The notes below the pieces were generated by a model, which was not told where the DNA came from, made no database searches, and saw nothing but the letters and a program-made list of their open reading frames with translations. This document shows positions 3,932 to 61,757 of a stretch of DNA of 64,000 nucleotides, in pieces. The stretch covers positions 28,501 to 92,500 of the forward strand of contig NC_085129.1 in the NCBI RefSeq assembly GCF_030269925.1, read 5' to 3'. A program made the position numbers and the translations under genes. This DNA comes from Bombyx mori (Eukaryota > Arthropoda > Insecta > Lepidoptera > Bombycidae). Position 1 is the stretch's first letter. The number at the start of each line of letters is the position of its first letter.

Positions 3932-5102
3932 AGTCTGCTGGCAGCCACGACCGCGAGCGCCACGAAAATACATCGCTCCGCGTTTAAAAAATCCGAAAAA
4001 TAGTGTCAAGTGCATGGATTGCAGTGAAAGTGGTCTTAAAAGAAGCGGACAGTGACAAGGAAGCCGACGCTGAAAACCGCGTGCTTCGGAGACAACGGGT
4101 TCTGGAGTTATTCCGGAAAACCTGAAAAAACCACGTGCTTGGAACACAAAGTGGCGTGCGCCGCTCGATATTGATCGACGACGTGTTGTTTTTCAAGTGT
4201 ATTTCTATAGCACACGGTGCCGCACACCTTCCACCCCAATTTCGGATTTTTTCAGTGAAAGTATCCGGAGATACAACACTTTTTCTCGAAACCACGTGGC
4301 CACGTGGTCCTAGAAATAGGGCAGCTCGACAGGAGTGTGATATACCAACAGAAGCGCCTTGAAGAGACAAACACGGACGTGTAAACAGCATCATCCGGAA
4401 TAAGCTGTGAAAAGAGATAGAGTGAAAAACATTTTGTGACCACGTGCTCGGGACACAAAAGTGCATTTTTCTCTAGATTTAGAGTGACGACCTGTGAGTT
4501 TTTTCGTGCGTCGAGAACGGCGCTTCGACGGGCTATACAACGACACCACTCGCCGATTTTTCCGGTAAGAATTTCCGGAGTTACAGTGTTTTTTCTTAAA
4601 CCCACGTGGACACGTGGTCCCAGTTCTGGGGCAGTGCGGCGGGAGTGCGATATACCAAAAGACGCGCCTCGACGAGACATTTACAACAATAAAAACCGCA
4701 TCACCCAGGAACACATAGAAAAAAAGTTATTACATAAAATGTGTTTATAACCTCTAAAATAGACAAAATTAGGAAAGTGTATATAAGTGGGACATATCGA
4801 CGACGTGAAAAACAGCAGACTTATTTATATAGATAGTTTTAAGCTTATTATAAACAATTTATTGATATTATAGGATACTATATAGTTAGTGATATTAGAT
4901 ATAAGTTGACTTTAATATAATTGACATATTTTGTCAATGTTAATTTAAGTTATTATTACTTAGACTGTATGTGATCTCTGATTACTGGCTGCTGTTAAAC
5001 TGTTAAATATACAACTTATACAAACTTTGAAGTAACACAGCTAGTAACAGTCATTGGGGATCACTTTGTTTTATAATAATTGACTCTAATCTCTCAAACA
5101 AG
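3932..5102 (+). promoter_or_regulatory. E1 5' UTR with two ~310-bp repeat units and CACGTG palindromes
   Basis: Two related units of about 310 bp begin near 4131 and 4440. Each opens with CCACGTGCT and carries a later pair of CACGTG sites 8 bp apart (4293 and 4301; 4603 and 4611), then the shared text GATATACCAA and GACGCGCC or similar. The same period and CACGTG spacing occur in E4. Repeated 5' monomers often hold LINE promoters, and CACGTG is an E-box, so promoter function is a reasonable inference. The last ~360 bp before ORF1 (4743-5102) are A+T-rich with nothing else recognisable. Confidence 0.7.
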
Positions 5103-6377
5103 ATGTACGCCGCATCAAGAACCCCTCCCAAGAGGAGTACAGATGAGACAGTTCCCCCCGGAAACGCTAAAAGGACTTCTATGACGGACACAGCGACAGC
5201 ACGGTTGGAGACCAGGAGCCCATATGACAAACTGGACCGGGTTGCTGAGGCCAGGGGTTGCCTGACTAGGGTGATGATCGGCCTCAGCAATTCGAAAAAT
5301 ATAAAAACCGAAATAAAGGAGGCGGTAAAGATATCGGTGGAGCGACTTTTTGTTCTGGTTAAGGAAGCTGAATCCGATAGAAAAAAGGGTAGTGGCGTGC
5401 AGGGAGGAGAGAAACTCCCTCAACCTGTGTCCACGCAGCACCCCCCTTCAGAACAGAAGGAACTCAGAGACATCCTGAAGGAGCACGGTGAGCTATTGGC
5501 GGACAGCAATGGCAAAATCAAACAACTGCAGGACCAGCTGACGCTGCACAGGGAAACGATGGAGAAGATGACCTACGCTGGTGTGGTGGCTGGAGGAACA
5601 CAAAAGACAAATTCTCCTAAAAGAACACTTCATACCGTGATGATAACCTCGACCGACGAGACAGACACGGGAGACCAAGTCCTGGAAAAAATCAGGAAAA
5701 CTGTTAATGCGAGGGACGAAGAGATAAAGGTAGATAAAATAAGGAAAGTTAAAGATAGGAAAATTATAGTGGGATGCAAGGATGGAAAGGAAATGGATAG
5801 AGTTAAAGACAAGATAAGAGAGCAGGAAGGGCTAACCATCGAGGACATAAAAGCCAAAGACCCACTAGTAATTCTATATGGAGTCTTGCAGTCAAACTCG
5901 GACGAGGATATAATGAAGTCTATAAAAAACCAAAATAGGCACCTGTTCCAGGGCTTAGGAAATGACGAATATAGGATTGAAATGTTATATAGGCGAAGAG
6001 CGAGGAACCCACTGACGGTACATGTGGTCCTGAGGGTATCGCCACAGGTGTGGAACCGGCTCACAGAGGCCGGGGCTGTGCATGTGGATATGCAGCGCGT
6101 CAGGGTCGCTGATCAGTCCCCCATAGTGCAGTGTTCGCAATGCCTGGGATATGGACACGGTCGCCGTTTTTGCCAGGAACAGGAGGTTGCGTGCGGTCAT
6201 TGTGGTGGGAACCATCTCCGAGCCCAGTGCACTAAATGGCAAGATGCCGAGGAACCCAGTTGCGTGAACTGCCAGAGGGCTAAGGCAATAAAGACCAGTC
6301 ATAGTGTATATAGTCAGGAGTGTCCAGTAAGAAGGAAGTGGGACACCCTGGCAAGATCTAGGGTTGCGTATTGCTGA
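5103..6377 (+). CDS. E1 ORF1, gag-like protein (424 aa)
   Basis: Gag-like nucleocapsid protein of a TRAS-type element. It has a short basic N terminus, a helical region near 40-90 (KNIKTEIKEAVK), a Lys/Glu-rich coiled coil near 115-155, a gag core near 170-330, and three zinc knuckles near 344-410: CSQCLGYGHGRRFC, CGHCGGNHLRAQC and CVNC...H...C. It ends in VAYC*, an ending E3 and E4 share. The ATG at 5103 is the natural start, since the homologues begin at the same point. ORF2 follows in the +1 frame and overlaps it. Shorter than E2 and E3 ORF1 mainly in the linker. Intact. Confidence 0.92.
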   Translation: MYAASRTPPKRSTDETVPPGNAKRTSMTDTATARLETRSPYDKLDRVAEARGCLTRVMIGLSNSKNIKTEIKEAVKISVERLFVLVKEAESDRKKGSGVQGGEKLPQPVSTQHPPSEQKELRDILKEHGELLADSNGKIKQLQDQLTLHRETMEKMTYAGVVAGGTQKTNSPKRTLHTVMITSTDETDTGDQVLEKIRKTVNARDEEIKVDKIRKVKDRKIIVGCKDGKEMDRVKDKIREQEGLTIEDIKAKDPLVILYGVLQSNSDEDIMKSIKNQNRHLFQGLGNDEYRIEMLYRRRARNPLTVHVVLRVSPQVWNRLTEAGAVHVDMQRVRVADQSPIVQCSQCLGYGHGRRFCQEQEVACGHCGGNHLRAQCTKWQDAEEPSCVNCQRAKAIKTSHSVYSQECPVRRKWDTLARSRVAYC

Positions 6378-6381
6378 GGGC

Positions 6382-9300
6382 ATGCTAAGGTATAGAGTGA
6401 CCCAGGTGAATCTCCAGCGCAAGTTGTTGGCAACGGAAGAATTGATAGTTGAGGCACAACGCCGAAAAATTAAAATAGCGTTAATCCAGGAGCCGTATGT
6501 GGGTGGTGCGAGAAGGATGAGAGACTACAGGGGGGTAAAGATTCTGCAGAGTGTCTTCGATACCGGGGAAGTCGTCAAAGCTGCGATAGCAGTGTTTGAC
6601 GATGACCTTGAGGTCTATCAATGCTTGGAACATACTACAAACAACATCTCAGTGGTAAAAATCAGAAATCTGACCTCTGAACTCATCCTGGTGTCCTTTT
6701 ACTTCGAGCCTGGGAAGCCCATAGAGCCGTACCTGGAACAACTGAGAAACATCCACAAAAGTTTCGGTGGTTGTGGTATCATCATGGGAGGGGACTGTAA
6801 CGCAAAGAGTGTGTGGTGGAACAGCCAAAGAGAAGACGAAAGGGGCAGACTTATGGCATCCTCCTTCATAGAAATGGGAATGCACATATTAAATGAGGGA
6901 GACGAGCCTACTTTCAGAACGATAAGAGGAGACAAGACTCTTAAGAGCCACATTGACGTTACTGTCTCCACCGAAAACATGATGGATAAAATACACAGCT
7001 GGTCGGTCGATGACTTCATAGGATCTGACCACGGAACGATCATTTTCGAGGTGGACTTACAGAAAAAGGTAGGGCAAAAGTGTATTAGGACAACCAGAAA
7101 ATTTAACACTAAAAAAGCAGACTGGGATAAATTTACGACAAAACTAGCAGAACTACAAATAAAATTTACAATTAACGAGGATAAAGTAAGGAAAATAAAT
7201 AACAAGAGTGAACTGGAGGAAATAGCTAAGAAGTATAATGACATAATAGTGGAGGCTGCCGAAGAAACTATACCGAAACTAAAAAGGACAGAATTACTTA
7301 CCTTGCCGTGGTGGACCGGGGAACTGGAAGCCTTGAAGAAGAAAGTCACGACCATGAGGCGACGTATTCGCTGTGCTGCGCCTGTCCGCAGGGGATACGT
7401 CATTGCCGAATACCTGAAAGAGAAGCAAAATTATGAGGAACAAGCTCAAAAGGCAAAGATAAACAGTTGGAAGGACTTCTGTGGGAAACAGGATAGGGAG
7501 AGTCTCTGGGAGGGAATATATAGGGTAATAGGACGGACCAAGAAGCGCCCGGAAGACATTCCGCTGATGGTATCTGGGAGGCAGTTGGGGCCGGAGGAAT
7601 CGGCCAGGTATTTGACCGACACTTTTTACCCCGAGGACTCCGAGGAGGAAGATACTTCCGAACACCGAGATATCAGGAGAAGGGTAGAACAACTAAACGA
7701 TGTGGTTCATTCTGAAGTCAATGACCCACCGTTTACGATGGCAGAGCTCCGAAACTCGGTGAGAAGTTTCAACCCGAAGAAGGCCCCGGGGTCCGACGGG
7801 CTGACGTCGGATATCTGCTCACAGGCTTTCCGGCAGGACGAGGGTCTCCTACTGGCGCTGACCAACAAGTGCCTAGAGCTGGGTAGTTTCCCGAGAGTGT
7901 GGAAACGGGCGACCGTAGTCGCACTGCGGAAACCGGGAAGGCCCGATTACGCATCGCCGAAGTCATATAGACCAATCGGTCTGCTCCCGGTCTTAGGAAA
8001 GATTCTGGAGAGAATGCTAGTGAGACGGTTGAGATGGCACCTGCTCCCGACAGCTAGTGCGGCGCAGTATGGTTTCACGCCACAAAAAGGAACCGAGGAT
8101 GCCCTGTATGACCTGATGGGACACATACGGAACATGCTGGAGCTAAAGAAGCTGATCGTGGTCGTCTCACTGGACATACAGGGTGCATTCGACTCGGCGT
8201 GGTGGCCGATGATTAAAACAAGGCTGGCGGAGGAAGATTGCCCAATAGGCATCCGCAGGATGTTGAACGATTACCTGAGAGACAGAATGGTAACTTTGAG
8301 CTACGCCGGTGGACAGCACCATAAGAAAACCGAAAAAGGTTGTGTCCAAGGGTCCATTGCGGGTCCGACCCTCTGGAACCTCCTGCTCGATCCCCTTTTG
8401 AGGACTCTAAAGGGTCGTGGGGAGTTCTGCCAAGCCTATGCAGACGACGTAGTCATTGTCTTCGATGGTGACGACGCGTTGCATATTGAGCGACGGGCAA
8501 ATCTGATCCTGGAGCTCGTCGGAGCATGGGGTAGAAAAAATAAGCTGCTATTTGCGCCGCAGAAGACGCGGTCTATGGTAATTACTAATAAAATCAAATA
8601 TGACGCCCCAAGGTTGGAAATGGGGGGAATCTCTATTGAAAGTGTTGACGAGATTAAGATCCTGGGGTTGACCATAGACCGCAAATTGACATTCAACACT
8701 CATGTCGACAACACTAGGGTGAGAGTGGCGCAAATATACAAGCAATTATCCAGAGCTGCCAGGGTCAGTTGGGGACTCCACCCCGAGGTTATCCGAGCGA
8801 TATACTCTGCAGTGGTGGAGCCCATAGTCCTTTACGCGGCTAGCGCTTGGGCTCGGGCGGCGGAGAAGGTGGGGGTTCAGAGGCGCCTATGGACGTTGCA
8901 GAGAGACTTTGCGCAAAAAATTATACTATACTAGCACTGTCCATATGGAAAGATGAAGTCGAGGTTGGCTCAAAAAGATATAGGCTCGAACCCTACTGCA
9001 CAGTCTACCAGGCGGAGTTGTTGGCGCTGGCGAGGGCCACTAGAGTGATAATGGGATCAGGGGCGAGTGAGTTCTGTATTTTTTGTGACTCAAGAGCGGC
9101 GCTAGACTCGATAATAAACAATGATTGCTATCACCCGTTGGCCGTGGAAGCTAGAGAGAACATTATAGCACTACAAGGAATAGGCAAAATAATAAAAATA
9201 TTGTGGATCAAGGCCCACGTGGGAATTAAAGGAAATGAAAGAGCTGACAAATTGGCAAAGGAAGCGGCCCTTAAACTAAAAACTAAAGCGGACTACAGCG

Positions 9301-9749
9301 CGTGCCCGGTGTCCTATATTAAAACGCAAATAAGGGGAACCTCTATAAAAGAATGGCACCGTAGATATGACGACGGGGAAACAGCATCGGTCACGAAGGC
9401 CTTCTTTCCACGGGTGGAGACGGCGTACCCTATTGTGAGGAAACTGGAATTTGACCAAACATTGACACAACTTATGACTGGACACGGGGGGTTTCTGTCT
9501 TATCTGTATCGGTTTAAGCTGAGAGACAGTCCGGCATGCACATGCGACTCAATATACGACGAAACGCCCTTACACATTATAACAGAATGTGCCATATTTA
9601 GCCGGGAGAGGCAAGACTTAGAAACTAAGTTAAAAATCCAAATTTGTACAGTAGAAATAAAAAATATTATGAAAAATAAAAAAGTAAGAGACAGTTTTAT
9701 AACGTACTGTAAAGATATTGTTAGTAAAGTCATAAGTAAAAATAAATAA
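6382..9749 (+). pseudogene. E1 ORF2 (endonuclease-RT-RNase H), broken by a 289-bp deletion
   Basis: ORF2 begins at ATG 6382, five bases after the ORF1 stop, although the frame is open further upstream. The endonuclease is complete (IQEPYVGG near residue 35, GGDCNAKSVWW, SDHGT near 214), as is the RT (YGFTPQKG, SLDIQGAFD, AYADDVV near 686). The frame stops at 8934. From about 8914 another frame continues to 9749 with the rest of RNase H (YCTVYQAELLAL, DSRAALD, IKAHVG, GNERAD) and a terminal Cys/His cluster. Aligned to E3, 289 bp are missing between 8911 and 8934, removing the stretch with the first RNase H catalytic Asp (FTDGS in E3) and shifting the frame. The element is therefore defective. 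Confidence 0.9.
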
Positions 9750-10225
9750 TAGACAAACATATGATTACGTATATCATAAGTATATATTAACATATGATAA
9801 GAAATAGTAATATAATGTAAGTTAGATAAGATATGCAAATAAGAATGTAAATAAACTGTAAAAATTAGATATTAACAATTGTAATAGTATATAAGAAACG
9901 AAAATAGATAATAAGCAACTTAGATAATAGTAATAGTGTAAATAATAAATGTTTAAAGATAGACTGATAGTTATAAGTTACATAATAAAACAAAAGAACT
10001 TAAAATTATTGAACCTGTAAAAAAATATAAAAAATATAGTTTAGATAAAATAGGCCGTAATCCCAGCGGCAATAATGTGAAAGAAGTGCGTGGATGTGAC
10101 GTATGGGTATAGATGCGGAAGGATGACTGATAGAACTAGAACGAATGAGGTACAACAGGTCTCCAATTAATTTGGAGGAGAGATTAGTTATAAAGAAAAA
10201 TTAAAAAAAAAAAAAAAAAAAAAAA
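9750..10225 (+). other. E1 3' UTR and poly(A)
   Basis: A+T-rich trailer ending in A23 directly before CCTAACC. It contains the small hairpin at 10054-10070 listed separately. No coding potential is visible. Confidence 0.8.
10054..10070 (+). promoter_or_regulatory. E1 3'-UTR hairpin (GCCG / CGGC)
   Basis: GCCG, loop TAATCCCAG, CGGC. E2 and E3 have a hairpin at the equivalent distance from the tail with the same ATCCCA-type loop but different, still paired, stem bases. A candidate signal for recognition by the element's reverse transcriptase. Confidence 0.55.
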
Positions 10226-10267
10226 CCTAACCTAACCTAACCTAACCTAACCTAACCTAACCTAACC
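10226..10267. repeat. Telomeric (CCTAA)n tract, ~8 units
   Basis: CCTAA pentamers between the poly(A) of E1 and the 5' end of E2. The two TRAS-like elements are head-to-tail in the same orientation. Confidence 0.98.
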
Positions 10268-11908
10268 AGAGTCTGCTGGCAGCCACGACCGCGAGCGCCA
10301 CGTTTTTTCCACGCTCCGCAACTTAAAATTACGAAAAATGGTTTTTTCGCGAGAAGATACAAGTGTGTAGTATCAAAATACGCGTCTCAGTGAGAGGAAC
10401 ACAACCGTGAAAACCGCTCGGAAATAAGTGAAAGTGAGAGAAAGTTGTGGTTCAAAAACTAAATTTTTTGTATGTTTTTGTGATACGCTGACAAAACCAG
10501 ATCGACGACCCCCCACTTTTTTGGGGTCTAAATAATCGTCTCGTCGAGCCCTACCTTCTGGACTATACCCAGGATTTTTCCGGTGGAAAACAGCCAGTGT
10601 AATCCCGAATTTCTGAAAACCACGTGCTACCGAGATCGACTCCCAGAACACCTGGACAGGCGTGTGGCACACCAATAGAAGCGTCTTGGCAAGGCGAGTC
10701 TTTTGACACCTGGATCATCGAGATCAGACAACCCGGGACAACACAGTGACGCTTTAAAGGTCGGCAAAATTTTGAAAATCTTTGGTGTCATTTTCCAGCT
10801 AAAGTAAATCGACAACCCCCCTTTTTTATTTTGTTATTATAAAGTAGACCCCTTAAAATTAAATTCTCCAAATTTTTAGATTTTTTGGATGTGTAGTTTA
10901 TTAAAAAATTAATTTTGAATAGTGTACTAAATAATCAGTTCAATATAAATGGAGTTAAACCCCCCTACCGATAATATTTTAAAAATTAATTTTGTTAAAA
11001 GTGTTCAAAAATAGACCTCTGAAGAAAGTTTAATTTTGTTTTTCTAATTAATCTAGTTAATATATAAAAACAAGGCTTTTTGCGGTTGGGCGGGAAAGTG
11101 ACACCAAAGCAAACCCCTTTGAAGAGGGTGAAAAAACCACGGCGCGCAGATTATAATATAAGTATAGTATAGTTTAGGTCATAAGGAACACATTACTTTT
11201 TAAATGGTGAATTTTGGACAATTTTTCGAATCGCGATCTTCGTTAGCATCTTTATTTACATCAGAGTTCAGCCGCAAATTGAGGCTGTCGCGGAGATCGC
11301 GATCTGAAAATCTACTTTTTAGATAATAATAAATTCGAGATTTTCTTATAAGGACTGGATAAAGCGTGGTTAAAAACCACCCTCCACGTTTTTAAATTTT
11401 TGGAAAAACTCTTTTTTCAGCAGAAAAAATTGACCTAAACTTAAAAAATTTAATAACAAATTTTACCCGATATATCGGGCAGTGTTGAAAAGGGAAATAA
11501 TGTTTTGCACGACCCAGGGCCGTATCCAGTAAACCAAGGGAGATAGACAAATTTTTGAGCTCGAATTCGACTTCAATTAGATAATTCAATTAACTAAAAA
11601 TATTTTAGTATTCTTTGTCATAGAATAGACTACCATTATTTATAACAGGTACATAAGGGACTACAAAAATTTTTAAATCGACTTAGCTAGATTTAGAAAT
11701 CTACTAAACTAACTTCGACTAAACTTCGACACTAAAAAATATATCTTTATTAATTTATAATTTTAATTGCACTGTATTAACATTTACATTTGGACACTGA
11801 CCCCCCTATACAGGGTCAGACAGACATATACACTCGACAACTTTCCCCGCTGTACTCGCACTACATCACATCACACTTACATCACACTCTCTCACACACA
11901 TACACACA
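10268..11908 (+). promoter_or_regulatory. E2 5' UTR (1.64 kb)
   Basis: Long leader. The first ~45 bp match E1. One CACGTG lies at 10621. A 9-bp inverted repeat TCGCGATCT/AGATCGCGA lies at 11231-11239 and 11294-11302. The rest is A+T-rich with several short C runs. No second ORF is convincing. Confidence 0.6.
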
Positions 11909-13429
11909 ATGTTCCATACACCAACAACATCTGGCGCTGCCAAAAAACCTCAAATTCCCAGCCCCGCTACCTCACCTTCGGTAATGCCGGACGCTGCCAG
12001 GACTTTCATTAAAAGACCGGAAACAAAAAGAAGGTCGCTTGATAATATGGACCTGTATAGAAAGCAGCAGCAGTACTATGCTGAGACACCGAGCGACCAA
12101 TTACTCCAGGAAGTGATGAAAACGTTTGAGGATATACCCTCAAAGGTCCAGCAGTACCCTCAGATGAGGCGGGACATCAAGTCCTTCCTGGAGTCACAAT
12201 CGGACAAAAGTATCCGCATACTCTTTGAGTTGAGTAAGCGGATGAAGTGTCTGGAAGCAGCGGCGTCCGGGACTAGCATACATACAGTAGCGTCATCTTC
12301 TAACAAAGAAGAAAAACTGCTGGGAAAATTGCAAGAGGTGGAAAACACACTAACTTCACGGCTTAGTCAAATGGAAGTTAACCTGAAGCATGAAATATCA
12401 GAACTTAATATAGGAAACGACGATCGAGGCGCTGACATCCTCGAACATATGTTTAAAAATTTCGAAGAGACCAAAGCCGAAATAGTTAAATCGACCGAAG
12501 GTGTCGTGGGACGGACGCAGGCTCTCTTTGAAGATCTGGCTGGTACTGTCGCCAGAGACGTCGTCGAAGCCAAAACGCAAATAAGCCAGATAGCAAAAGG
12601 GTTGACAGCTGAGAGCAACATGGTTCCCCAAACATATGCCAGCGTCGCAGCAACAAAACCTGGGCGTCGTCCGGCGCTTCACTCGATGGCGGTGACCTTC
12701 GAGGACAATCAAGAGACTGTCGAAGAGGTACTCGCGAGAGTGAGGAAGGCGGTCGACGCCAGGGGTACTGGCCTTAAAATAAATAAAATAAGGAAGGCAA
12801 AGAATAGCACAGTCATACTCGGCTGCGATACGGAAGTGGAACTAGATAAGGTGAGAGAAAGGATAAAAAGCCACGGTGATGGGTTAATCGTAGCGCCCAT
12901 GAAGAATAAGGACCCACTCGTCGTCCTTAAAGACGTCTTTATGGACAATGACGACAACGAAATGGTTAAGGCCCTTTACGCTCAAAACGCCGACATCTTC
13001 ATGGGTCTATCACAAGAGGAGATGGATTTGACAATTAAATATAAAAAGAGGACCAGAAATCCTAAGACCTCTCACGTTGTCATCCAGGTGAGACCGAAGG
13101 TATGGCAGAGGATGACGGAGGCTGGCGCCCTCTATCTGGACCTGCAAAGGGTCAGAGTGGAGGACCAGTCTCCGCTCATCCAATGCACGAAGTGCCTCGC
13201 CTTCGGCCACGGCCGCAAATTCTGCACCGGGAGTGTAGACAAGTGTAGCCACTGCGGAGGCCCACACTTGCGTGAGGAATGCGCCGACTACATCGCGGGA
13301 ATTAAACCGCAGTGCTGCAATTGCTTGCACTCCAGGTTGCAGAGTACGGATCACAACGCATTCAGTGTCGATTGCCCAACCCGCAAAAAGTGGGACTACC
13401 TGGCGCGATCAAACACTGCATATATATGA
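11909..13429 (+). CDS. E2 ORF1, gag-like protein (506 aa), sole ORF of the element
   Basis: Full-length TRAS-type gag protein. It has a Pro/Ser-rich N terminus (1-45), a helical region with coiled-coil character (about 60-230), a YASVAAT segment near 247, a gag core homologous to E1 and E3 (about 260-420), and three zinc knuckles near 426-495: CTKCLAFGHGRKFC, CSHCGGPHLREEC and CCNC...H...C. It ends AYI* where the others end AYC*. The ATG at 11909 follows a CACACA run. The frame has no break, while the element has no ORF2, which suggests the protein is still kept by selection. Its middle part is longer and quite different from E1, E3 and E4, so E2 is not a simple recent deletion of one of those. 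Confidence 0.92.
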   Translation: MFHTPTTSGAAKKPQIPSPATSPSVMPDAARTFIKRPETKRRSLDNMDLYRKQQQYYAETPSDQLLQEVMKTFEDIPSKVQQYPQMRRDIKSFLESQSDKSIRILFELSKRMKCLEAAASGTSIHTVASSSNKEEKLLGKLQEVENTLTSRLSQMEVNLKHEISELNIGNDDRGADILEHMFKNFEETKAEIVKSTEGVVGRTQALFEDLAGTVARDVVEAKTQISQIAKGLTAESNMVPQTYASVAATKPGRRPALHSMAVTFEDNQETVEEVLARVRKAVDARGTGLKINKIRKAKNSTVILGCDTEVELDKVRERIKSHGDGLIVAPMKNKDPLVVLKDVFMDNDDNEMVKALYAQNADIFMGLSQEEMDLTIKYKKRTRNPKTSHVVIQVRPKVWQRMTEAGALYLDLQRVRVEDQSPLIQCTKCLAFGHGRKFCTGSVDKCSHCGGPHLREECADYIAGIKPQCCNCLHSRLQSTDHNAFSVDCPTRKKWDYLARSNTAYI

Positions 13430-14461
13430 CCCATACACTCAGCGGAACGCACACACATGACAAATATAAACACACACACACACACACACACACATGCACA
13501 CACACTGATATAAAAGTATATAATAAATATATATGGATATATCAACACAGCAAGTCAAACAAACACTGAACACATATGCAAATGACTAAATAGAAAAAAG
13601 CCAAAGAAATAACCCCGCAATAAGAAATGACAATAAGTATATATACTAGAGTATATATATACTATTGACGAAGAAACAATGGAAATTATAGAAACACTGA
13701 GTCAAAATGTCACTATCCCTAAGTTTAAATAATAGTACCTAACTAAAAAGACATCCTTAGATAGAGTAAATACCGGAAGAAACCATAATAATAAGTTAAA
13801 AACATATTGTTAATAGAATAAGAAACAAAAACTGTACAAAACTAGATGTTAAGAATTATGTAAGAGTGAGTACAATAAACTGTGAATAGAATAAGAAATA
13901 GTAATAGTAAACTGTAGACATAACAACATAATACTATACTGTAAGAAAATTAAGTTAAAACATATTGATAAATAAAGCAAGAAACGAATAATTGTAAAGA
14001 ACTAGATGTTAAGAATTATGAAAGAATGAAGACAAGAAACTGTGAATAGAATAAGAAATAGATAGTAAGCTGTAGACATAACATTATAAAATTGTACTGT
14101 AAGAAAATTTAAGTTTAAAAATATTGTAGCTATGTTGTATTGGACAATGTCGTCAAAGGTGTTAAGTAAAAAAGTTATGTAGTAACATCAGTATGTAGTA
14201 TGTATGTATCAACAACATTATGTAGTAACAGGTTACAATAAACGGTCACATACGTAGTAAAATTATTACCCCAACAGATAAAAATACAAGGTAGTCAAAT
14301 TAGCGGGAGTCCCACCCGGCAAAGAAAGTAAGGTGATGGATAAAAGAAAGAAATAGTATGAGGCATGTCAGTGCGAGAGGCATACAAGCGAGAAATAGTA
14401 TGAATGTGTTACATAGAATAATAAGGTCCTGCCGAGCCTATGGGCGGGGAAAGGCGTAGAA

Positions 14462-14513
<52 letters not shown>
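13430..14513 (+). other. E2 3' UTR with 160-bp tandem duplication and poly(A)
   Basis: About 1 kb of A+T-rich noncoding sequence in place of ORF2. It begins with a short CA run (13470-13504). Roughly 13800-14120 is an imperfect tandem repeat with a 160-bp period: ACTAGATGTTAAGAATTATG occurs at 13841 and 14001, and GTAAGAAAAT at 13941 and 14099. It ends with A50 at 14464-14513. Confidence 0.8.
14304..14318 (+). promoter_or_regulatory. E2 3'-UTR hairpin (CGGG / CCCG)
   Basis: CGGG, loop AGTCCCA, CCCG. Corresponds to the E1 hairpin at 10054 and the E3 hairpin at 22108. Downstream text (AAGTAAGGTGATGG) also resembles E3. Confidence 0.55.
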
Positions 14514-14516
<3 letters not shown>

Positions 14517-14565
14517 AACCTAACCTAACCTAACCTAACCTAACCTAACCTAACCTAACCTAACC
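14514..14565. repeat. Telomeric (CCTAA)n tract, ~10 units
   Basis: CCTAA pentamers between the E2 poly(A) and the 5' end of E3, again head-to-tail. Confidence 0.98.
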
Positions 14566-16377
14566 AGTCTGCCGTGGCCCTCCGCAGCGAACACGCGCGT
14601 CCCAAGTTGCTCCGCAGTGATTTACGCTCGAAAAATCATTAAAAATTCCGAAAAGTGGTGAAAAGTGTACCAAAATTGCAGTGTGATACACCAAAATTTG
14701 TGGAAAAGTGCGGCGAACCGGTTGGTGAAAGTTTATTTTGGATCGCAGTGAAATTTGGACGATTTTCCGTGGAAAAACTCGGAAATTGCAGAATTCCAAA
14801 ACTTTGATCGCGTGCGCCGCGCGTTTTATCGCTGTGACATACAGTTTTTCTACTGCTATCCTGACGGGCTTGTTAAACCCTACAATCCAATACCAAATTT
14901 GGAATTTTTCGGCCAGAGACGGCCGAGAAATCACCGAAAAAAACAAAAACCACGTGGCACGTGGTCAGTGATCGGCGGCCATTTTGGAAAATTAGAAAAT
15001 ATATACTGGTGGAGGCAGACGAAAGAAGCCCAGAACCGTTTCAAGACCTGAAAAAAGTTAAGGCGTTTTTGAGTTGTTGAATTTTGAAAATTTGGAAATA
15101 TTTGAAATTTTTATCTTTTTGTAATGATCTATAACATATAGTTTCATTATTATCATTCCTTAGTCATATTAAAGCTTACATACACCTGCAACATTGTTGA
15201 AAAAATCAGAAATTTCTATCAGAAAACTCCGGAGAAAATAATTTTTCAAAATTTTTTAAATTTTCAACTGCGTTTAAAAAATAATTACAAAAAATCTAGA
15301 ACATTTTAATTTAAATATTATTGTAGAGCTAAAAATTTAGCATAACTTTAACGCCTTAATTGAAATTATTGGACCGAAATTTAGTACTTTTATAATCATT
15401 TTAAGGAAAAAATTTATTACTTTTAGAAATAATAAATCGTAGGTCAGTTGGTTCTTATTGTTAAATAAATATTCGTGACCCTGAGAGAAGCCCTTACAAA
15501 ACGAGCCCAAACTCGACTAGTTTCGGACCACTTTTTAAATTTTTAATTTTTGGCTTATTTTATTTGTGTTTGTATTATTAATTAGGAACTTTAAAAATTT
15601 AGAACTGTACATACTTCTGCTGTGCGTGTTGTGTATGTCTTAGAATAGGTTATGAATTTGACTGATTCGTGAATCACTTGTATTTTTGACCCGCATAGAA
15701 AGCGGAACAATATAAAACATTTATCTTAAGCCGTAAGAAACCGAGCGAACTTGCGGACCAATAGAACGGCGCGGCGGTGACGTGATATCGATGTTGTTTA
15801 CATGCAGGTGAGCGGATGAGTCACGCGCCGCACCATCTGGTCCCGTCTTTTGTTTCTTTATGTTTTGTTACATTTAAATTTGAAATAAAATAACATCGGA
15901 CATAACACGGCCAACTTGTTGATTTATTGTGTACGCGACAAATGAAAATAGAACGAAATTGGATGCTTGGTTTGGTTACTTGCTGTCACTGACTTAGATG
16001 TACATATCTAGTGCATAATAATATTAGTTTTAGTGTGAATGAGAAATACATAACTGTATTCCTTAGAAATTGTGGACAGTGTGTGACTGAGCTGACGTCA
16101 TTGTTTTGTTTCGTTTTGTTTTTATTTTAATTTTATATTTACTTTTTTATTTATTTGTTTTATATATTTCATATTATAATTCGGAACTGCGAGTGATTTA
16201 ATTGTGTCGGTTATGTTTAAAATAGTTTAACAGTTTGACTGCTTATTTTAGTTAGTTGGTCCACACACACACCCACACACACAGACACACACACACACAC
16301 ACATACACACACACACACACACACACATACACACACACACACACACACATACATACACACACACACCCACACACACA

Positions 16378-16424
<47 letters not shown>

Positions 16425-16742
16425 AAGTAAACAAATAGGGAAATAAAAATAAATAAAATAAAGAACTTCTTACCGACATCCGACGAGTCCAGTACTCGTG
16501 CAGTCTGACAAATCTGTAACAAAAAAAAAAAAAAAAAAAAACTTTTATCTTGCTACTTATCACGACTTATTTGACTGACCCTATTGGGCAAATAAAATCT
16601 TTTCTGAGTACTGACAAGTCAGTGACTCATCCTATACATATTGACTACCGTTTTCTCTGTTATTTTAACGGTTACAACAAAAGGGGCAGCTCCTTTTACA
16701 ACTTTTACAAAACTGTCTGCCCCTCCGCACCACATTGTCAAA
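14566..16742 (+). promoter_or_regulatory. E3 5' UTR (2.18 kb)
   Basis: Long leader different from E1 and E4 in most of its length. It carries a CACGTG pair at 14951 and 14958, an A+T-rich middle, and a CA microsatellite at 16260-16421 followed by A20 near 16520. Promoter function is inferred only from position and from the shared CACGTG pair. Confidence 0.6.
16260..16421. repeat. (CA)n microsatellite in the E3 leader
   Basis: About 160 bp of CA dinucleotides with occasional CATA, CCCA and CAGA variants. Two segments around ACACCCACACACACAGACAC are alike (near 16267 and 16364), so part of it grew by duplication of a larger unit. Confidence 0.95.
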
Positions 16743-18188
16743 ATGTTTGGACTTGGACTCCGCACGCCTGTTAAAAGACAGGAGAGCCATAAGTCACCCC
16801 CAAAGGTGATCGTTCGCAAAAGTATAGACAGGTGGGAGGCCGCTGAGCGAAGCGAAGAACTGACTGCGAAAACATGTCCAGAAATAACAAAGACCAATGC
16901 GACAACGCAGGCAGGCCCTGCAGAAACAACTAAGGCGGCCACCAAGCCAGCCGAAAACATCACCGCCGCGCGCAGGGCATCAACGGGAAATGACGAGTCC
17001 CCCAAAAAATTCTACGTCAGCAGAGCAGCAGAGGCGGCAGCCTGTCTGAATAAGGCGAAGGCCCATTTGAGGGCCTCACGAAACCTCAAGACAGAGATAA
17101 AAGAGGGGGTTGAAAAGGCACTCACACGACTACTTGAGCTAGTCAAGGAAGCTGAAAAAGAGCTCAAGACGAAGGGAAGTACAACGGTGAGGGGAGTAAG
17201 AGCGTTTGATGCTCCTTCTTGCAGCTCCGCTCCCTCTCCTTCCTCTACCTCCAACGAAAGCCTAATCATGGCACGTTTAGAAGAACATACAAACCTGATG
17301 CAGGAAAGCGGCAGGAGAATGGAAGAACTGAAGGCGACGATCGAAAGGCATGCCGAAAAAATGGAAAAGATAGAAACGCCTACCTACGCCGGGGTGACCG
17401 CGACCCAGAGCGACAGGGCGCTGCAAAAGCGCACGCTGCACTCGGTCGCGGTCACCTCGACCGTGGAGACGGAAACAGGAGAAGAAGTGCTCGAAAGAGT
17501 AAGGAGAACCATAGACGCTAAGGAGGGATGGGTAAAAGTGGAGAGGGTAAGAAAGGCCAAAAATAGGAAAGTAATAATGGGCTTTGAATCTAAGGAAGAA
17601 CGAGACAAAATAAAGGATAGAATAGGAAAAGAAGGTGGCAGCCTCACCATCGAGGACGTGGAGAACAAAGATCCGCTGGTTAGGCTTGGAGATGTACTGA
17701 CGGTCAATACCGATGAGGACATCCTCAAGGCTCTTCGGAACCAGAATGGGGCTGTTTTCCGCGGCCTTGAGGAGGGGGAGGACAGGATAGTAGTGAAATA
17801 TAGAAGGAAAGCCAGAAACCCTCACACTAATCACGTAATTATTAGCGTCTCGCCCAGTGTCTGGAGGCGGGTAACGGAAATGGGCTATGTCTATATAGAT
17901 CTCCAGCGGGTCAGAGCAGAAGATCAGACCCCGCTAGTCCAGTGCACGCGCTGCCTGGGGTACGGCCACAGCCGTAAGTACTGCCATGAGACTGCAGATG
18001 CATGCAGCCACTGCGGCGGCCCTCACATGAGAACGGAGTGCGCGGACTGGCTAGCTGGGGGGTCACCGGCCTGCAGAAACTGCAGAAAGGCGAAATTAAC
18101 GCAGATAGAGCACAATGCCTTCAGTTCTGAGTGCCCTGTACGCCGCCGCTGGGACGAACTGGCCCGTTCGACTGTAGCGTATTGTTAA
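16743..18188 (+). CDS. E3 ORF1, gag-like protein (481 aa)
   Basis: TRAS-type gag protein. The frame is open 34 codons further upstream, but the first ATG is 16743, and E4 ORF1 also starts MFG, so this start is chosen. It has an Ala/Thr-rich N terminus, a helical ACL-NKAKAHL region near 100-140, a coiled coil near 180-210, a YAGVTAT segment, a gag core near 220-390, and zinc knuckles from about residue 401: CTRCLGYGHSRKYC, CSHCGGPHMRTEC and CRNC...H...C. It ends VAYC*. The ORF2 frame is +1 relative to it and overlaps its end by 11 nt. Intact. Confidence 0.93.
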   Translation: MFGLGLRTPVKRQESHKSPPKVIVRKSIDRWEAAERSEELTAKTCPEITKTNATTQAGPAETTKAATKPAENITAARRASTGNDESPKKFYVSRAAEAAACLNKAKAHLRASRNLKTEIKEGVEKALTRLLELVKEAEKELKTKGSTTVRGVRAFDAPSCSSAPSPSSTSNESLIMARLEEHTNLMQESGRRMEELKATIERHAEKMEKIETPTYAGVTATQSDRALQKRTLHSVAVTSTVETETGEEVLERVRRTIDAKEGWVKVERVRKAKNRKVIMGFESKEERDKIKDRIGKEGGSLTIEDVENKDPLVRLGDVLTVNTDEDILKALRNQNGAVFRGLEEGEDRIVVKYRRKARNPHTNHVIISVSPSVWRRVTEMGYVYIDLQRVRAEDQTPLVQCTRCLGYGHSRKYCHETADACSHCGGPHMRTECADWLAGGSPACRNCRKAKLTQIEHNAFSSECPVRRRWDELARSTVAYC

Positions 18189-21100
18189 CGCCAAGGTTGT
18201 CACCACAAAATACAGCTTTATTCAAGCGAACCTCCAGCGCAAAAAGCTAGCAACCAACGAGCTACTTGTTGAGGCAGAGAAACGCGGAGTAGCTGTAGCA
18301 CTCATACAAGAACCTTATGTGGGTGGAGGGAAGGCGTTGAGGAGCCATAGAGGCGTCAGGATCTTCCAGGACACTGGTGGAGATGGAACCGTTAAGGCAG
18401 CAATAGTTGTCTTCAACAACGACTTCAAAGTTATACAGTATCCAAAACTCATCACCAAAAACATCATGGTGGTGGGGATCCAAACGGTTGCTTGGGAGAT
18501 CACACTAGTCTCCTTCTACTTTGAGCCGGACTCCCCTATAGAACCCTACCTGGAGCATCTGAAAAGGATAGAGCTCGAGATTGGGTCTATAAAATTGCTC
18601 GTTGGAGGAGATACGAACGCGAAAAGCTCGTGGTGGGGAAGCCCAATAATAGATCATAGGGGTGAAGACCTTTCTGGGACGCTTGAGGAAATGGGCCTAC
18701 ATATACTCAACGCAGGTGAAACTCCGACTTTCGACTGCGTTCGAGGAGGCAAGCGGTATACAAGCTATATAGACATCACCGCGTGTTCAGTCGACCTACT
18801 AGACTTGGTGGACGGCTGGAAAATTGACGAAGGTCTCACGAGCTCGGATCACAACGGTATTGTATTTAATATTCGGCTACAAAGGTCAAAAGGCATTAAT
18901 ATCTCAAGAACAACTAGGAAATTTAACACAAAAAAAGCAAATTGGCCTAAGTTTCATGAGAAGCTTAGCCAATTAATGCAAGAAAACAAACTAACAGCAG
19001 CAGAAATAAATAACATAAACACTATAGAACAATTGGAAAAAACAATAAATACACTTACCAAAACAATAGATAATACATGTACAATCTCAATACCAATTAA
19101 ACAAACAAAAGAAAAACTTACCTTGCCGTGGTGGTCCGAGAAACTAGCTGGGATGAAGAAGGAAGTCGCCACCAGGAAACGTAGAGTGCGAAACGCCGCT
19201 CCAATTCGTAGGTCCAAGGTCGTTGAAGAGTACCTAAAAAAGAAAGAAGAGTATGAGGAGGAGGCAGCCAAAGCGCAGACAGATAGCTGGAAGGATTTTT
19301 GTTGTAGGCAAGACGGGGAGGGGGTTTGGAGCGGAATATATAGAGTAATATCGAGAACGACTACTAGGGAGGAAGACTCTATACTGGTAAAGGACGGAGA
19401 GTTCCTGGACGCGAAGGGGTCCGCAAAGTTACTAGCGGATAACTTCTATCCGGAGGATCTGAGGACCAACGATAACGCCTATCACCGCCAGATTAGAAGT
19501 GAGGCTAATATTGTGAATGTTGGTAAACAAACTGAGTATTGCGACCCACCTTTCACGATGGCCGAATTGAGACAGGCGAGTGGATCCTTCAACCCAAAAA
19601 AGGCCCCGGGCATGGACGGTTTCACTGCGGACATCTGCTGCCATACCATAGAAGCCAATCCAGAACTCTTTTTGTCGTTGCTCAATAAATGCCTGGAGCT
19701 ATATCATTTCCCCATGGCTTGGAAGGTAGCTACAGTTGTAATGCTGAGGAAGCCAGGAAAAGGAGACTACACCACTCCAAAGGCGTACAGACCAATTGGA
19801 CTACTGCCTATACTAGGCAAGATTTACGAAAAGATGCTGGTGACCCGCCTCAAATTCCATCTATTACCAAGGATGAGTACTCGCCAGTACGGATTCATGC
19901 CACAGAGGGGTGCCGAAGACTCCCTCTATATTCTGATGCAACATATCCGCAAGAAGCTAAAAGAAAAGAAAATAATTGCATTAGTATCGTTGGATATAGA
20001 GGGAGCCTTCGACAGTGCCTGGTGGCCAGCAATAAGAGTCCGACTGGCTGAGGAAAAGTGTCCAGTAAATCTGAGGCGGGTCATAGACAGCTATCTTAGT
20101 AACAGGAAGGTGGTGGTCAAGTACGCTGGGGAGGAATATGATAAGGGAACGAATAAGGGATGTGTTCAAGGCTCAATCGGGGGCCCAATTTTATGGAACC
20201 TGCTGCTCGACCCTCTCCTGAAAAGTCTCGAAAACAGTGGAGAGTATTGCCAGGCGTTTGCAGATGACGTCGTCTTGGTGTTCGACGGGGAGACTGGGGA
20301 AGAGGTGCAGAGACGTGCCAATGATACCCTCGGGCGTGTCCAGGCGTGGGGGGTCAACAACAAGCTAAAGTTTGCCCCGCACAAGACAAGTGCAATGATT
20401 ATTACAAGGAAGCTCAAGTATGACACTCCTCGCCTGGACATGGGCGGTGCTGTTATTGGTATGTCAAAAGAGATCAAGCTGTTGGGAGTCATAATCGACC
20501 ACCAACTTACATTCAACGCCCACGTCTCGAGCGTCTGCAGGAAAGCCATGGGCATATTTAAACAGCTATCGAGAGCGGCTCGAGTAAGTTGGGGGCTTCA
20601 CCCAGAGGTCTTAAGGGTGATATATGTTGCCACCATAGAGCCTACCGTACTGTACGCTGCCAGCGTCTGGGCGCCGGCCACAGCCAAGCTTATGGTAATA
20701 AAGCAGCTAGCAACTCTCCAACGTGGAATTGCGCAGAAATTGTGCAAAGCCTACCGCACGGTCTCCCTGAACTCGGCGCTGGTGCTCGCTGGAATACTCC
20801 CTCTTGACCTCCGAGTTCGTGAGGCGGCTTCACTGTATGAAGCCAAGAGGGGTGTTCCATGGCTGGCCATCGGGGACGGGGAGGTCGAGCGGATGGCTTC
20901 TGCAATCGAAGCCCCACACCCAGCCGAGCACGAGGACTTAAATATCGTAAGCCTGGCGAACCAAGAGCAAATGAAAGAACACAACTGCTATGACGTGCGT
21001 ATATTTACGGACGGGAGCAAGATTGAGGGCAAAGTCGGAGCCGCACTATCCATATGGAGTCGCGAGGTAGAATCCAAAGCCCTCAAGCTTGCTCTACCAA

Positions 21101-21861
21101 AATACTGCACGGTTTACCAGGCTGAACTCCTGGCCATATGCAAGGCAACAAAGGAGATCCTCGGGCACAAGGCGTCCACGTTTGGGATATTTAGTGACTC
21201 CATGGCGGCCCTTCAAACTATTAAAAACCCCGGTTGCCCCCACCCCCTCGCTGTGGAAGCCAGAGATAATTTGAGATCCATATCTCTCCAGAACAAGGTA
21301 GTTACTTTGTTCTGGATAAAGGCTCACGTGGGGTTGGATGGTAACGAGAGGGCTGACCAACTAGCGAAGGAGGCTGCCCTGAAGTCAAAAAAGAGACCGG
21401 ATTACGATCGATGCCCTGTTTCATTCGTCAAGCGTAGCATTCGTATGGCGACGCTTGACGAATGGAACCGCAGGTACCAAGCGGAAGAAACTGCGTCAAC
21501 AACAAAACTCTTCCTCCCGGACGCGAAGGCGGCCTACAAAGTGGTGCGAAATTTCGTACCGACACAGTTGACTACACAAATCCTAACGGGGCACGGTGGA
21601 TTTTCCGATTATCTTAATCGTTTTAAATGCAAGGAGAGTCCATCGTGCGTCTGTGACTCAGTCCAAGCGGAAACAGTACAACACCTGCTTTTAGAGTGTC
21701 CAATTCATATAAATGAAAGATTTGAACTCGAGCAAACAGTAAAACAAAACCTGACACTTGAGACGATTCAGGAGCTAATCTCGGGAAAAAATAGAGAACT
21801 ATTTATAAAATACTGTATAAAAATTGTAGAAAGAGTAATAAATAGAAACAAATTAGCCTAA
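18178..21861 (+). CDS. E3 ORF2, endonuclease-reverse transcriptase-RNase H (~1227 codons)
   Basis: Complete enzyme polyprotein. The endonuclease should nick the telomeric strand and the RT copy the mRNA from that nick. Counting from the first codon of the open frame at 18178: IQEPYVGG near 43, GGDTNAKSSWWGS near 150, SSDHNG near 222 (endonuclease); YGFMPQRG, SLDIEGAFD, GCVQGSIGGP and FADDVV near 694 (RT); FTDGSK near 943, DSMAAL, IKAHVG and GNERAD (RNase H); and a C-terminal CVCD...H...C cluster. There is no ATG before the endonuclease core, so ORF2 must start at a non-AUG codon, by frameshift or by another coupling to ORF1. The coordinates give the open frame, not a proven start. Confidence 0.9.
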   Translation, partial: RIVNAKVVTTKYSFIQANLQRKKLATNELLVEAEKRGVAVALIQEPYVGGGKALRSHRGVRIFQDTGGDGTVKAAIVVFNNDFKVIQYPKLITKNIMVVGIQTVAWEITLVSFYFEPDSPIEPYLEHLKRIELEIGSIKLLVGGDTNAKSSWWGSPIIDHRGEDLSGTLEEMGLHILNAGETPTFDCVRGGKRYTSYIDITACSVDLLDLVDGWKIDEGLTSSDHNGIVFNIRLQRSKGINISRTTRKFNTKKANWPKFHEKLSQLMQENKLTAAEINNINTIEQLEKTINTLTKTIDNTCTISIPIKQTKEKLTLPWWSEKLAGMKKEVATRKRRVRNAAPIRRSKVVEEYLKKKEEYEEEAAKAQTDSWKDFCCRQDGEGVWSGIYRVISRTTTREEDSILVKDGEFLDAKGSAKLLADNFYPEDLRTNDNAYHRQIRSEANIVNVGKQTEYCDPPFTMAELRQASGSFNPKKAPGMDGFTADICCHTIEANPELFLSLLNKCLELYHFPMAWKVATVVMLRKPGKGDYTTPKAYRPIGLLPILGKIYEKMLVTRLKFHLLPRMSTRQYGFMPQRGAEDSLYILMQHIRKKLKEKKIIALVSLDIEGAFDSAWWPAIRVRLAEEKCPVNLRRVIDSYLSNRKVVVKYAGEEYDKGTNKGCVQGSIGGPILWNLLLDPLLKSLENSGEYCQAFADDVVLVFDGETGEEVQRRANDTLGRVQAWGVNNKLKFAPHKTSAMIITRKLKYDTPRLDMGGAVIGMSKEIKLLGVIIDHQLTFNAHVSSVCRKAMGIFKQLSRAARVSWGLHPEVLRVIYVATIEPTVLYAASVWAPATAKLMVIKQLATLQRGIAQKLCKAYRTVSLNSALVLAGILPLDLRVREAASLYEAKRGVPWLAIGDGEVERMASAIEAPHPAEHEDLNIVSLANQEQMKEHNCYDVRIFTDGSKIEGKVGAALSIWSREVESKALKLALPKYCTVYQAELLAICKATKEILGHKASTFGIFSDSMAALQTIKNPGCPHPLAVEARDNLRSISLQNKVVTLFWIKAHVGLDGNERADQLAKEAALKSKKRPDYDRCPVSFVKRSIRMATLDEWNRRYQAEETASTTKLFLPDAKAAYKVVRNFVPTQLTTQILTGHGGFSDYLNRFKCKESPSCVCDSVQAETVQHLLLECPIHINERFELEQTVKQNLTLETIQELISGKNRELFIKYCIKIVERVINRNKLA

Positions 21862-22259
21862 GAAAGTTATGTTTACATAATATAATGTTAATATTAAGAT
21901 AAACATAAAAATATAAAGTAAGTAAATAGTATAGTTAAGGAAATGTAAAAATAGTAATAAGATAAATAAGTATAAAACAAAAGTGACGCCCTGTGTTGTT
22001 GTCTGTGTTTTTTATGTGTGTTTTATATGTGTGTAATGTAAAAATCAACCTGCCCTTGTATCCCTAAGAAAATAGATTATTATAATTAGCGTAGCTAGTA
22101 AGCGTAGCTGGGAATCCCACCCAGAAAAAGTAATGAAAGATGATGAATGAAAGAAAGATGGTATGTAGCATGAAAGTACGAGAAGAAAACTTGCGAGAAC
22201 TGGAATGAAAGAGAACTTGTTAGAACAGGCTCCGATCACGTTGGAGGTAGACAGATTAT

Positions 22260-22318
<59 letters not shown>

Positions 22319-22330
22319 AAAAAAAAAAAA
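21862..22330 (+). other. E3 3' UTR and poly(A)
   Basis: A+T-rich trailer with a hairpin at 22108-22124, then A-rich tail 22264-22330. Nothing coding. Confidence 0.8.
22108..22124 (+). promoter_or_regulatory. E3 3'-UTR hairpin (CTGGG / CCCAG)
   Basis: CTGGG, loop AATCCCA, CCCAG. Stem bases differ from those of E1 and E2 but pair in each copy. Confidence 0.55.
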
Positions 22331-22337
22331 CCTAACC
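22331..22337. repeat. Single telomeric unit CCTAACC between E3 and B1 tails
   Basis: Seven bases separate the poly(A) of plus-strand E3 from the poly(T) (22338-22352) that is the tail of minus-strand B1. Confidence 0.95.
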
Positions 22338-22866
22338 TTTTTTTTTTTTTTTCGGGTAGAGGGCCGAACCTCCTACGAGGTCCCCGCGCAAAAGGGGCGC
22401 GCGGGGTATGTGAGACTCAACGATCTGCATGGTGTTGTGAGCAGACCGCGGGCCCAAGGATTTTAGAGCCCACCCACTAAACGACTCCTCTGCACTCTTA
22501 CACCCGACGTCCGATCCCCTCCGAGCTCAAAACCCGGATGAGGTAGGGGGGCTACCGCGGTCAACACTACAACCAGACGGCGCGGCTCACCCCAAGGACG
22601 CCCAGCCGACGGAGCCTTCGAGGCGAATCGAAGGCTCTGAAACGTCGGCCGTCTCGGTACGGCAGCCCGTCGGGCCGCCCAGACGGTGCCGCTGGTGTCC
22701 CGGAATACCCCGCTGGACCAGAACCAGCCTGCCGGGTCGGGACGCGATACACCGTCGACCGGTCGCTCTAATCACTCCACGGCAGCGCGCTAGAGTGCTG
22801 GTAGCGCGCCGCGCGGCCTCACCCCCTCAGGTCGCCCCTTGACCTTCACCGGGGGGAGGCCGCCAC
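22338..22866 (-). other. B1 3' UTR
   Basis: Trailer of about 515 bp plus T15 tail. It shares the terminal hairpin CCCCGCGC...GCGCGGGG (about 22381-22405) with all family B copies. Silkworm SART1 needs its 3' UTR for reverse transcription, so such structure may be functional. Confidence 0.75.
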
Positions 22867-28192: not shown

Positions 28193-29034
28193 TTTTTCAT
28201 AATTCCTTTTTGATTAACCAGGGGTCGGTCCCCTGGGGTCTGGTTGGTACCCTTGGGACTGGACTCTCTCCAGCCATTCATCCCATCGCCGGGCACCAGA
28301 GCTTAGGATTGGGGCATTTTTTAAAGAGGTTTACGTCCTCGCGGCCCCGTGCCTCGCGGCAGCGGCCCCCGTCCCCCACGCAGTGAGGATTACGGGTTGG
28401 CCGGCGGCCTGCCGAGTGCAACGAGCAACACGACAGACCCCCGCCCGACGCTCAAAAGAGCAACAACCACGAAGCCACGCCGGTATACCGGTACCCCTCT
28501 CTGGAGGGCGTGCCCCTGTAGCCGAAGCCGGGGACATGGCGACCAGCGGCCGGAAGATGCGTAAGCAACGCCGGCTCACTTCTCCATCGAAGGGCAGGCC
28601 AAAAGTGGCCCACCACCACCCATGGGTTACGTCCGAAACAGGTCGGACGTGACCCGAAGAAAAACAAAAAAGGGGGAAGAAGGGGAAGAGAGAGGGAGCC
28701 CGAGCGTCTCCAGGAGGAACACCCTTCAGCGAGTGAAGGGCGTGAAGAGCCCGCAACTCCCCCTGCTGGTTTTGGTCCGCGTCATCCGATCTCTTTCGTT
28801 GCAAAGCCTAACTAGGCTACCCTACTCCTACACCTAGCCTACCTACCTAACACCTAGAAATCCTTGCAACGAAAAAGACCGGACGATACCCCTGGGAGTG
28901 GGACTGTTCCCAGAGGATCCCGTTATCCGCCACCTACGGACGCGCCCGGTGGAAGTCCAGCAAAACTCCCCCACAGACGGAGCCCCCGGCCACGCAGAGT
29001 GCGCGCCGGGGGGCCCGCCCAGGTCCCTCGGGAA
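28193..29034 (-). promoter_or_regulatory. B1 5' UTR (842 bp)
   Basis: Leader with the pre-AUG hairpin CCAGGGG-TCGGT-CCCCTGG at 28218-28236, 26 nt before the ORF1 start, and the long inverted repeat around a CCTA-rich loop at about 28787-28882. The terminal part is shared with A1. Confidence 0.7.
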
Positions 29035-29041
29035 CCTAACC
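29035..29041. repeat. Single telomeric unit CCTAACC between B1 and B2
   Basis: The only telomeric sequence between the 5' end of B1 and the poly(T) tail of B2 (29042-29061). Confidence 0.95.
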
Positions 29042-36101: not shown

Positions 36102-36108
36102 CCTAACC
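36102..36108. repeat. Single telomeric unit CCTAACC between B2 and B3
   Basis: Seven-base spacer before the T23 tail of B3. Confidence 0.95.
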
Positions 36109-51006: not shown

Positions 51007-51009
51007 TGA

Positions 51010-61755: not shown

Positions 61756-61757
<2 letters not shown>

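Follow-up and report, generated by a model that had tools for sequence, protein, structure and literature searches.

A gag-only TRAS-type element between telomeric repeats of Bombyx mori and its possible copying in trans through a 3' tail shared with a neighbouring element

The 64,000-nucleotide (nt) stretch of Bombyx mori contig NC_085129.1 analysed here (hereafter the window) contains, at positions 10268-14513 of the plus strand, E2, a structurally clean, gag-only TRAS-type element at the telomere. TRAS elements belong to the R1 clade, and TRAS1 comes from Bombyx mori. E2 lies between two further TRAS-type elements, E1 upstream and E3 downstream. We propose, with a probability of roughly 0.6, that it is a non-autonomous element encoding only its own gag, whose RNA would be copied in trans by the second open reading frame (ORF2) of an E3-like element via its 3' tail. 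At both its 5' end and its poly(A)-bearing 3' tail, the E2 RNA would have remained of the TRAS type; the ORF2 protein of an E3-like TRAS element would recognise this tail, nick the telomeric repeat and copy the E2 RNA into the nick, while the E2 gag would probably coat its own RNA. What the sequence shows is the anatomy of E2, the lack of a findable pol, insertion in the repeat phase of E1 and E3, the resemblance of its tail to that of E3 and an open pol in E3; from these we infer mobilisation in trans, a function of the gag and movement of E2 in its present form.

Anatomy of E2 and search for ORF2

E2 is flanked on both sides by perfect CCTAA tracts (10226-10265 and 14514-14563), organised as (CCTAA)8 plus CC at 10226..10267 and (CCTAA)10 plus CC at 14514..14565. 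The 5' untranslated region (UTR) comprises 1641 nt (10268..11908, plus strand), and its beginning (10270-10342) is 81% identical to the 5' end of E1 (3932-4004). It is followed by the gag frame, ORF1 (11909..13429, plus strand), with 506 amino acids plus a stop codon at 13427-13429; its start at ATG 11909 is supported because five relatives with the N-terminus present also begin with M..TP. The 3' UTR (13430..14459, plus strand, 1030 nt) contains a 160-bp direct repeat in 2.1 copies with 84% identity (13792..14128, plus strand) and leads into a 54-nt poly(A) tract (14460..14513, plus strand). The long A tract, the perfect flanking repeats and the open gag together suggest a young copy. A reading made from the sequence alone had described a gag-only TRAS-like element between CCTAA tracts, with a TRAS-like 5' end, an unbroken gag of 506 codons, and a 1-kb 3' UTR with internal repeats and poly(A); all of these points were borne out, the 5' end through its similarity to E1, with a 3'-terminal similarity to E3 in addition. 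A search of 3932-22330 against Rfam yielded no matches up to E=0.1.

The junctions are of the TRAS type. The same CCTAACC phase precedes all four TRAS-type elements of the window (E1, E2, E3 and E6, the last with one extra C), and the three with a visible 3' end (E1, E2 and E3) all terminate in poly(A) next to CCTAA, an orientation that we take to be the TRAS rather than the SART direction. E2 was therefore inserted at the same repeat position as the two-ORF elements on either side. This position would be explained if the E2 RNA was served by a TRAS endonuclease, E2 itself being devoid of any findable endonuclease.

No trace of endonuclease (EN), reverse transcriptase (RT) or RNase H was found in E2, including its 3' UTR, by frame inspection or by tblastn with pol frames of the window. 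The queries were the two frames of E1, that of E3 and the EN of the element E4, with the SART pol frames at 23616-43531 left out, and none gave a convincing match (best E=0.06 for the two E1 frames, 0.32 for E3 and 1.5 for E4). Between stops, the 3' UTR is open for at most 61 amino acids. One further frame, 51010-52770, was first taken for pol and matched E2 at E=0.001 over the zinc-knuckle region; it proved to be the gag (PRE_C2HC) of another long interspersed nuclear element (LINE). An A-rich segment of the 3' UTR (13785..13926, plus strand) resembles the post-ORF2 3' UTR of E1 (9812-9948; score 75, shuffle maximum 62 of 500), which gives E2 the appearance of a TRAS element that lacks ORF2.

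The 3' UTR of E2 retains segments that follow ORF2 in E1 and E3, which is also what would be expected if ORF2 had been excised. In that case, ORF2 would have disappeared a single time, upon this insertion or later, from a normal two-ORF TRAS family with an E2-type gag, leaving E2 as a dead copy. Such a removal would have to spare both the gag stop codon and the tail, and, considering also the gag relatives described below, we judge a single deletion derivative to be rather unlikely.

A collapse or mis-join during assembly could likewise have removed ORF2. Telomeric arrays are hard to assemble, and the SART array of this window includes 8.2-kb stretches that are 98.8% identical. The similarities between E2 and other window sequence reach at most 85% outside simple repeats and A runs, so E2 was not mis-joined with other sequence of the window, and an artefact of this kind is very improbable.

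A 3' tail shared with E3

The evidence for a partner comes from the 3' end. Within the last 160 nt of E2, a matching stretch of about 105 nt (14301..14404, plus strand) is 75% identical to the tail of E3 (22105-22209). Significance was assessed by comparing local alignment scores with those of dinucleotide shuffles, and the score of 72 exceeded the maxima of 44 among 500 shuffles and, for the last 170 nt, 31 among 1000. A neighbour with a matching 3' tail, a candidate for the partner elements that the sequence-only reading had proposed to look for, was thus found in E3. The tail of E2 is of the TRAS type as judged by comparison with the E1 and E3 tails only. Over the last 170 nt, E1 and E2 were not significantly similar (score 21, equalled by 297 of 1000 shuffles, and by 210 of 500 in a separate test), and E1 and E3 matched weakly (score 33, 4 of 1000 shuffles as good). 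The middle of the E2 3' UTR showed no significant similarity to E3 (362 of 500 shuffles).

E3 (14566..22330, plus strand) is a putative autonomous element with a gag extending to 18188 (first Met at 16743) and an open ORF2 at 18319-21861 with EN, RT and RNase H. This ORF2 is 64% identical to the Bombyx mori ORF2 Q93139, which we take to be that of TRAS1. Copying by an E3-like ORF2 via the common tail is the simplest reading because this ORF2 is open and carries all three domains, and E3, lying immediately downstream, is a plausible partner of E2. The silkworm telomeric elements are described as requiring their 3' UTR (PMC4700185), and in PMC7265360 SART1Bm helper proteins act in trans on a reporter mRNA with the SART1 3' UTR and mobilise it into telomeric repeats. 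Since the tails match and SART1 proteins act in trans through the 3' UTR, copying of E2 by an E3-like ORF2 would be the best mechanism.

The agreement of the tails can be set against the divergence of the coding regions. Between the E2 and E3 gags, codon positions 1, 2 and 3 agree at 0.67, 0.71 and 0.37, over a span that includes time in which ORF2 may still have been present in the carriers. Identity at fourfold sites is close to that expected by chance (20 of 60 for E2-E3, 15 of 60 for E1-E3 and 10 of 49 for E1-E2). Judged from these codon comparisons, the gags are constrained as proteins, whereas neutral sites are almost saturated; agreement of E2 and E3 in their non-coding tails would thus mean that the tail was either maintained by function or exchanged. 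The common tail of E2 and E3 also offers a concrete candidate for the feature that TRAS ORF2 recognises.

Possible RNA structures were predicted in this region. The loop AGUCCCA of a possible stem-loop (14304..14318, plus strand) has counterparts in the E1 and E3 tails, the heptamer A(A/G)UCCCA occurring once per element, in the tail, at a distance from the 3' end of 164 nt in E1, 205 nt in E2 and 217 nt in E3. The motif was spotted by eye and its counts are post hoc: it occurs 16 times in the window (6 on the plus and 10 on the minus strand), and only the occurrences in these three tails have arms for a stem of at least 4 bp, the stem sequences differing between the elements. A terminal hairpin just before the poly(A) (14427..14449, plus strand) is predicted in all three tails, with other stem sequences in E1 and E3.

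Several observations weigh against copying by an E3-like ORF2 through the tail. The 5' end of E2 matches E1 and not E3; a further 40 nt of the E2 5' UTR, similarly placed in both elements, also match E1 (score 40, against at most 35 in 300 shuffles). The whole 3' UTRs of E1 and E3 reach a score of 46 in an A-rich part, with a shuffle maximum of 45 of 500, which indicates that TRAS UTRs are to some extent alike in general. When the whole tails are folded at minimum energy, the loop hairpin forms in E3 only and not in E1 or E2, and the isolated E2 loop-hairpin piece folds preferentially into another pairing. The gag-only form was seen once, in E2. Finally, a template switch, recombination or descent from a common parent could have produced the tail match between E2 and E3.

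In the case of template switching or recombination, synthesis would have started with an E3-like RNA as template and continued on an RNA with the E2 gag, giving a chimera without ORF2. This would account for the mosaic of similarities, in which the 5' end and the middle of the 3' UTR resemble E1 and part of the last 160 nt resembles E3. At 75% identity, such an event would be old, and the chimera would have moved since then with that tail, so that this alternative merges with copying in trans by an E3-like ORF2; moreover, the mosaic cannot be polarised with only three elements. We consider a chimeric origin of this kind improbable.

The E2 gag and its relatives

The C-terminal half of the E2 gag is 51% identical to the E3 gag (over 267 amino acids) and 42% identical to the E1 gag. 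The earlier description of the gag as well diverged from those of E1, E3 and E4 therefore holds for the first two, while E4 turned out to be a minus-strand element in the SART direction. Three zinc knuckles had also been claimed. Three zinc-knuckle-like motifs of the CCHC type are present, at 13184..13225 (C426 C429 H434 C439), 13244..13282 (C446 C449 H453 C458) and 13313..13375 (C469 C472 H482 C489), all on the plus strand, and their 12 cysteine and histidine ligands are identical in all 12 aligned gags. The third has a long spacing, and the Pfam zinc-knuckle model did not match the E2 gag at E<=0.1, nor did any Pfam family score above its cut-off; the motifs therefore rest on the conservation of their ligands.

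Upstream of these motifs, residues 47-241 (12047..12631, plus strand) form an N-terminal domain characteristic of the E2 clade, which was defined by a sequence profile and appears helical in a low-confidence model. Two RRM-like folds are predicted at residues 258-410 (12680..13138, plus strand). The AlphaFold model of the whole protein had a mean pLDDT (predicted local distance difference test) of 56.8, with 10-residue blocks of 251-410 at 62-88. Foldseek gave weak matches for the RRM-like region (best E 1e-3), tandem-RRM proteins among others, and no PDB structure matched the model at E<0.001.

The gag is not unique to the window. The protein database search, of which the best 120 of 228 matches were considered, listed near-full-length relatives (89-100% of the query) at 97% (P0001), 81% (P0002) and 58-63% (nine proteins) identity. 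The relatives include proteins from Helicoverpa armigera and Arctia plantaginis, and those with named hosts among these best 120 are all lepidopteran. A further protein, P0012 from Parnassius apollo, is 74% identical to the C-terminal half of the E2 gag; it has an RNase H domain in front of this half, an arrangement suggestive of a 5'-truncated element inserted into another LINE. Scans of viral contigs (two) and of prokaryote genome contigs (one) returned pattern matches and no relative of the E2 gag.

In a tree of the C-terminal domain, E2 and P0001-P0012 formed one clade of 13 with a support of 1.0, and five Diatraea saccharalis gags formed its sister group (support 0.994). The tree contained 147 rows, obtained from 246 examined proteins, 154 of them with the domain, after rows with fewer than 180 model positions were dropped, those of other fused proteins among them; none of its 23 tips from proteins over 1200 amino acids fell inside the E2 clade. 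The profile of the N-terminal domain, built from E2 and P0001-P0011, matched its 12 building members at 4e-72 or better, as expected by construction. Outside the clade, true matches to the core were found in the Diatraea proteins P0071 (1.7e-10) and P0081 (7e-10), which rules out that the domain is wholly private to the clade, and weak matches in P0106 (8.4e-6, over 35 residues) and P0076 (2e-5). P0106 and the pol protein P0139 lie on contigs of equal size, so that a gag probably accompanied by pol shows a weak match to the N-terminal profile.

These proteins bear directly on the loss of ORF2 by a single deletion. Among 30 gag-pol fusion proteins, none carried the E2-type N-terminal domain, and hence no ORF2-bearing close relative of E2 was found in this set. 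Twenty-eight of them came from the best 120 of 285 matches in a pol search, in which the best profile scores were 0.25 for the fused proteins and 0.035 for all 120. The remaining two (P0241 and P0242) were the new ones among nine matches of a search restricted to long proteins, in which the E2 gag (region 1-506) was repeated three times in a row as the query; the other seven were already known. P0241, the best long match (551 bits), was rejected as an E2-type gag with pol, its model holding two ordinary TRAS gags. Pairs of gag and pol on equal-sized contigs, sought by eye, numbered three (6159, 5504 and 9698 nt) with none in the E2 clade, a weak result given that the pol list holds the best 120 of 285. 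Nor does the E2 gag show clear decay, with 13 differences from P0001 in 460 residues and 2 of 158 conserved columns changed, compared with 0 to 9 in the other members.

Other aspects favour a deletion. The remaining clade members are known from proteins alone, and the contigs of four of them, 1659-3840 nt in length, are too short to tell whether an ORF2 is present. A lone gag says little, as many other TRAS gags among the best 120 of 228 matches are also listed as lone proteins. The long-protein search can miss fusions, having recovered 7 of the 28 known ones, although an E2-type fusion would share more words with the query. On balance, these comparisons support the view that the E2 gag belongs to a divergent, conserved clade, with no ORF2-bearing relative among the 30 fusion proteins.

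A broader possibility is an old lineage of gag-only elements that comprises the whole clade (Helicoverpa, Arctia, Parnassius and others) and perhaps its Diatraea sister group. It would have given up ORF2 and kept a distinct gag under selection, its tail following an active TRAS ORF2, and would live among the telomeric TRAS and SART elements. We regard this extension as doubtful. If true, the HeT-A arrangement would have arisen independently within a telomere of the telomerase type.

Comparison with known non-autonomous elements

E2 resembles TRAS elements in that it is inserted in CCTAA, has a related gag and a poly(A), and has its 5' end in common with E1 and its tail with E3; it differs from them in the lack of an ORF2 with EN, RT and RNase H. 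MoTeR2 of the blast fungus is also telomeric, lacks RT and has 5' and 3' terminal sequences in common with the RT-bearing MoTeR1 (PMC7367193). An unrelated sequence without obvious function takes the place of the RT region in MoTeR2, whereas E2 keeps its gag; the end sequences of MoTeR1 and MoTeR2 are the same, whereas the E2 and E3 tails are 75% identical. MoTeR2 shares both ends with one RT-bearing partner; E2 shares its 3' tail with E3 and its 5' end with E1. HAL1 (half-L1) of mammals is an ORF1-only LINE with poly(A) that needs the RT and EN of full-length LINEs (PMC5322556); unlike E2, it is derived from L1, and that paper does not describe it as telomeric.

HeT-A of Drosophila, whose partners are TART and TAHRE, was the analogue suggested by the sequence-only reading. 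It is telomeric and gag-only, has a long 3' UTR and obtains RT from another element (PMC4700185, PMC5537684). Its 3' UTR contains a promoter, and it forms head-to-tail arrays at chromosome ends in a species without telomerase; E2 lies inside CCTAA repeats beside TRAS and SART elements. E2 thus combines a gag with the absence of pol at a telomere, as HeT-A does, and has CCTAA on both sides in place of head-to-tail arrays free of telomerase-type repeats. HeT-A is an analogue in the division of labour and not in anatomy, E2 lying within CCTAA in the same phase as its TRAS neighbours; MoTeR2 and HAL1 are closer to E2 in design.

To our knowledge, the explanation of why HeT-A kept gag and dropped RT rests on one lineage. 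A second, independent gag-only case in Lepidoptera, if true, would make this question testable, given that a cell assay for telomeric retrotransposition exists in this order, with SART1 in Sf9 cells (PMC7265360). Among the titles and abstract openings listed in searches of open-licence PubMed Central papers (in some cases 15 of 156, 20 of 66 and 10 of 56 papers), none described a gag-only TRAS or SART element.

Neighbouring elements

E1 (3932..10223, plus strand), the TRAS-type element sharing the E2 5' end, has its pol at 6364-9749 split into two overlapping frames and is therefore probably not autonomous. Downstream, at 22331-22352, the poly(A) of E3 is followed only by CCTAACC and then by a T run, apparently the poly(A) of a minus-strand element, so that two elements would meet here tail to tail, with about 1.5 telomeric repeats at the junction. 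Tandem minus-strand SART-type units occupy 28901-45479, with a gag of 809 amino acids and a pol of 1081-1082 amino acids, and 29042-37200 is duplicated at 37322-45479 with 98.8% identity.

E6, the further TRAS-type element (55872-64000), has a split gag, with the N-terminal part at 57535-58080 and the C-terminal part from 61844; between the two parts lies a LINE with an open pol of 986 amino acids and an 86-nt A tract. Another LINE, on the minus strand at 48124-52770 and presumably of the Jockey type, encodes a PRE_C2HC gag and an EN/RT pol; the SART-type element with frames at 53035-55790 lies next to it and may be interrupted by it.

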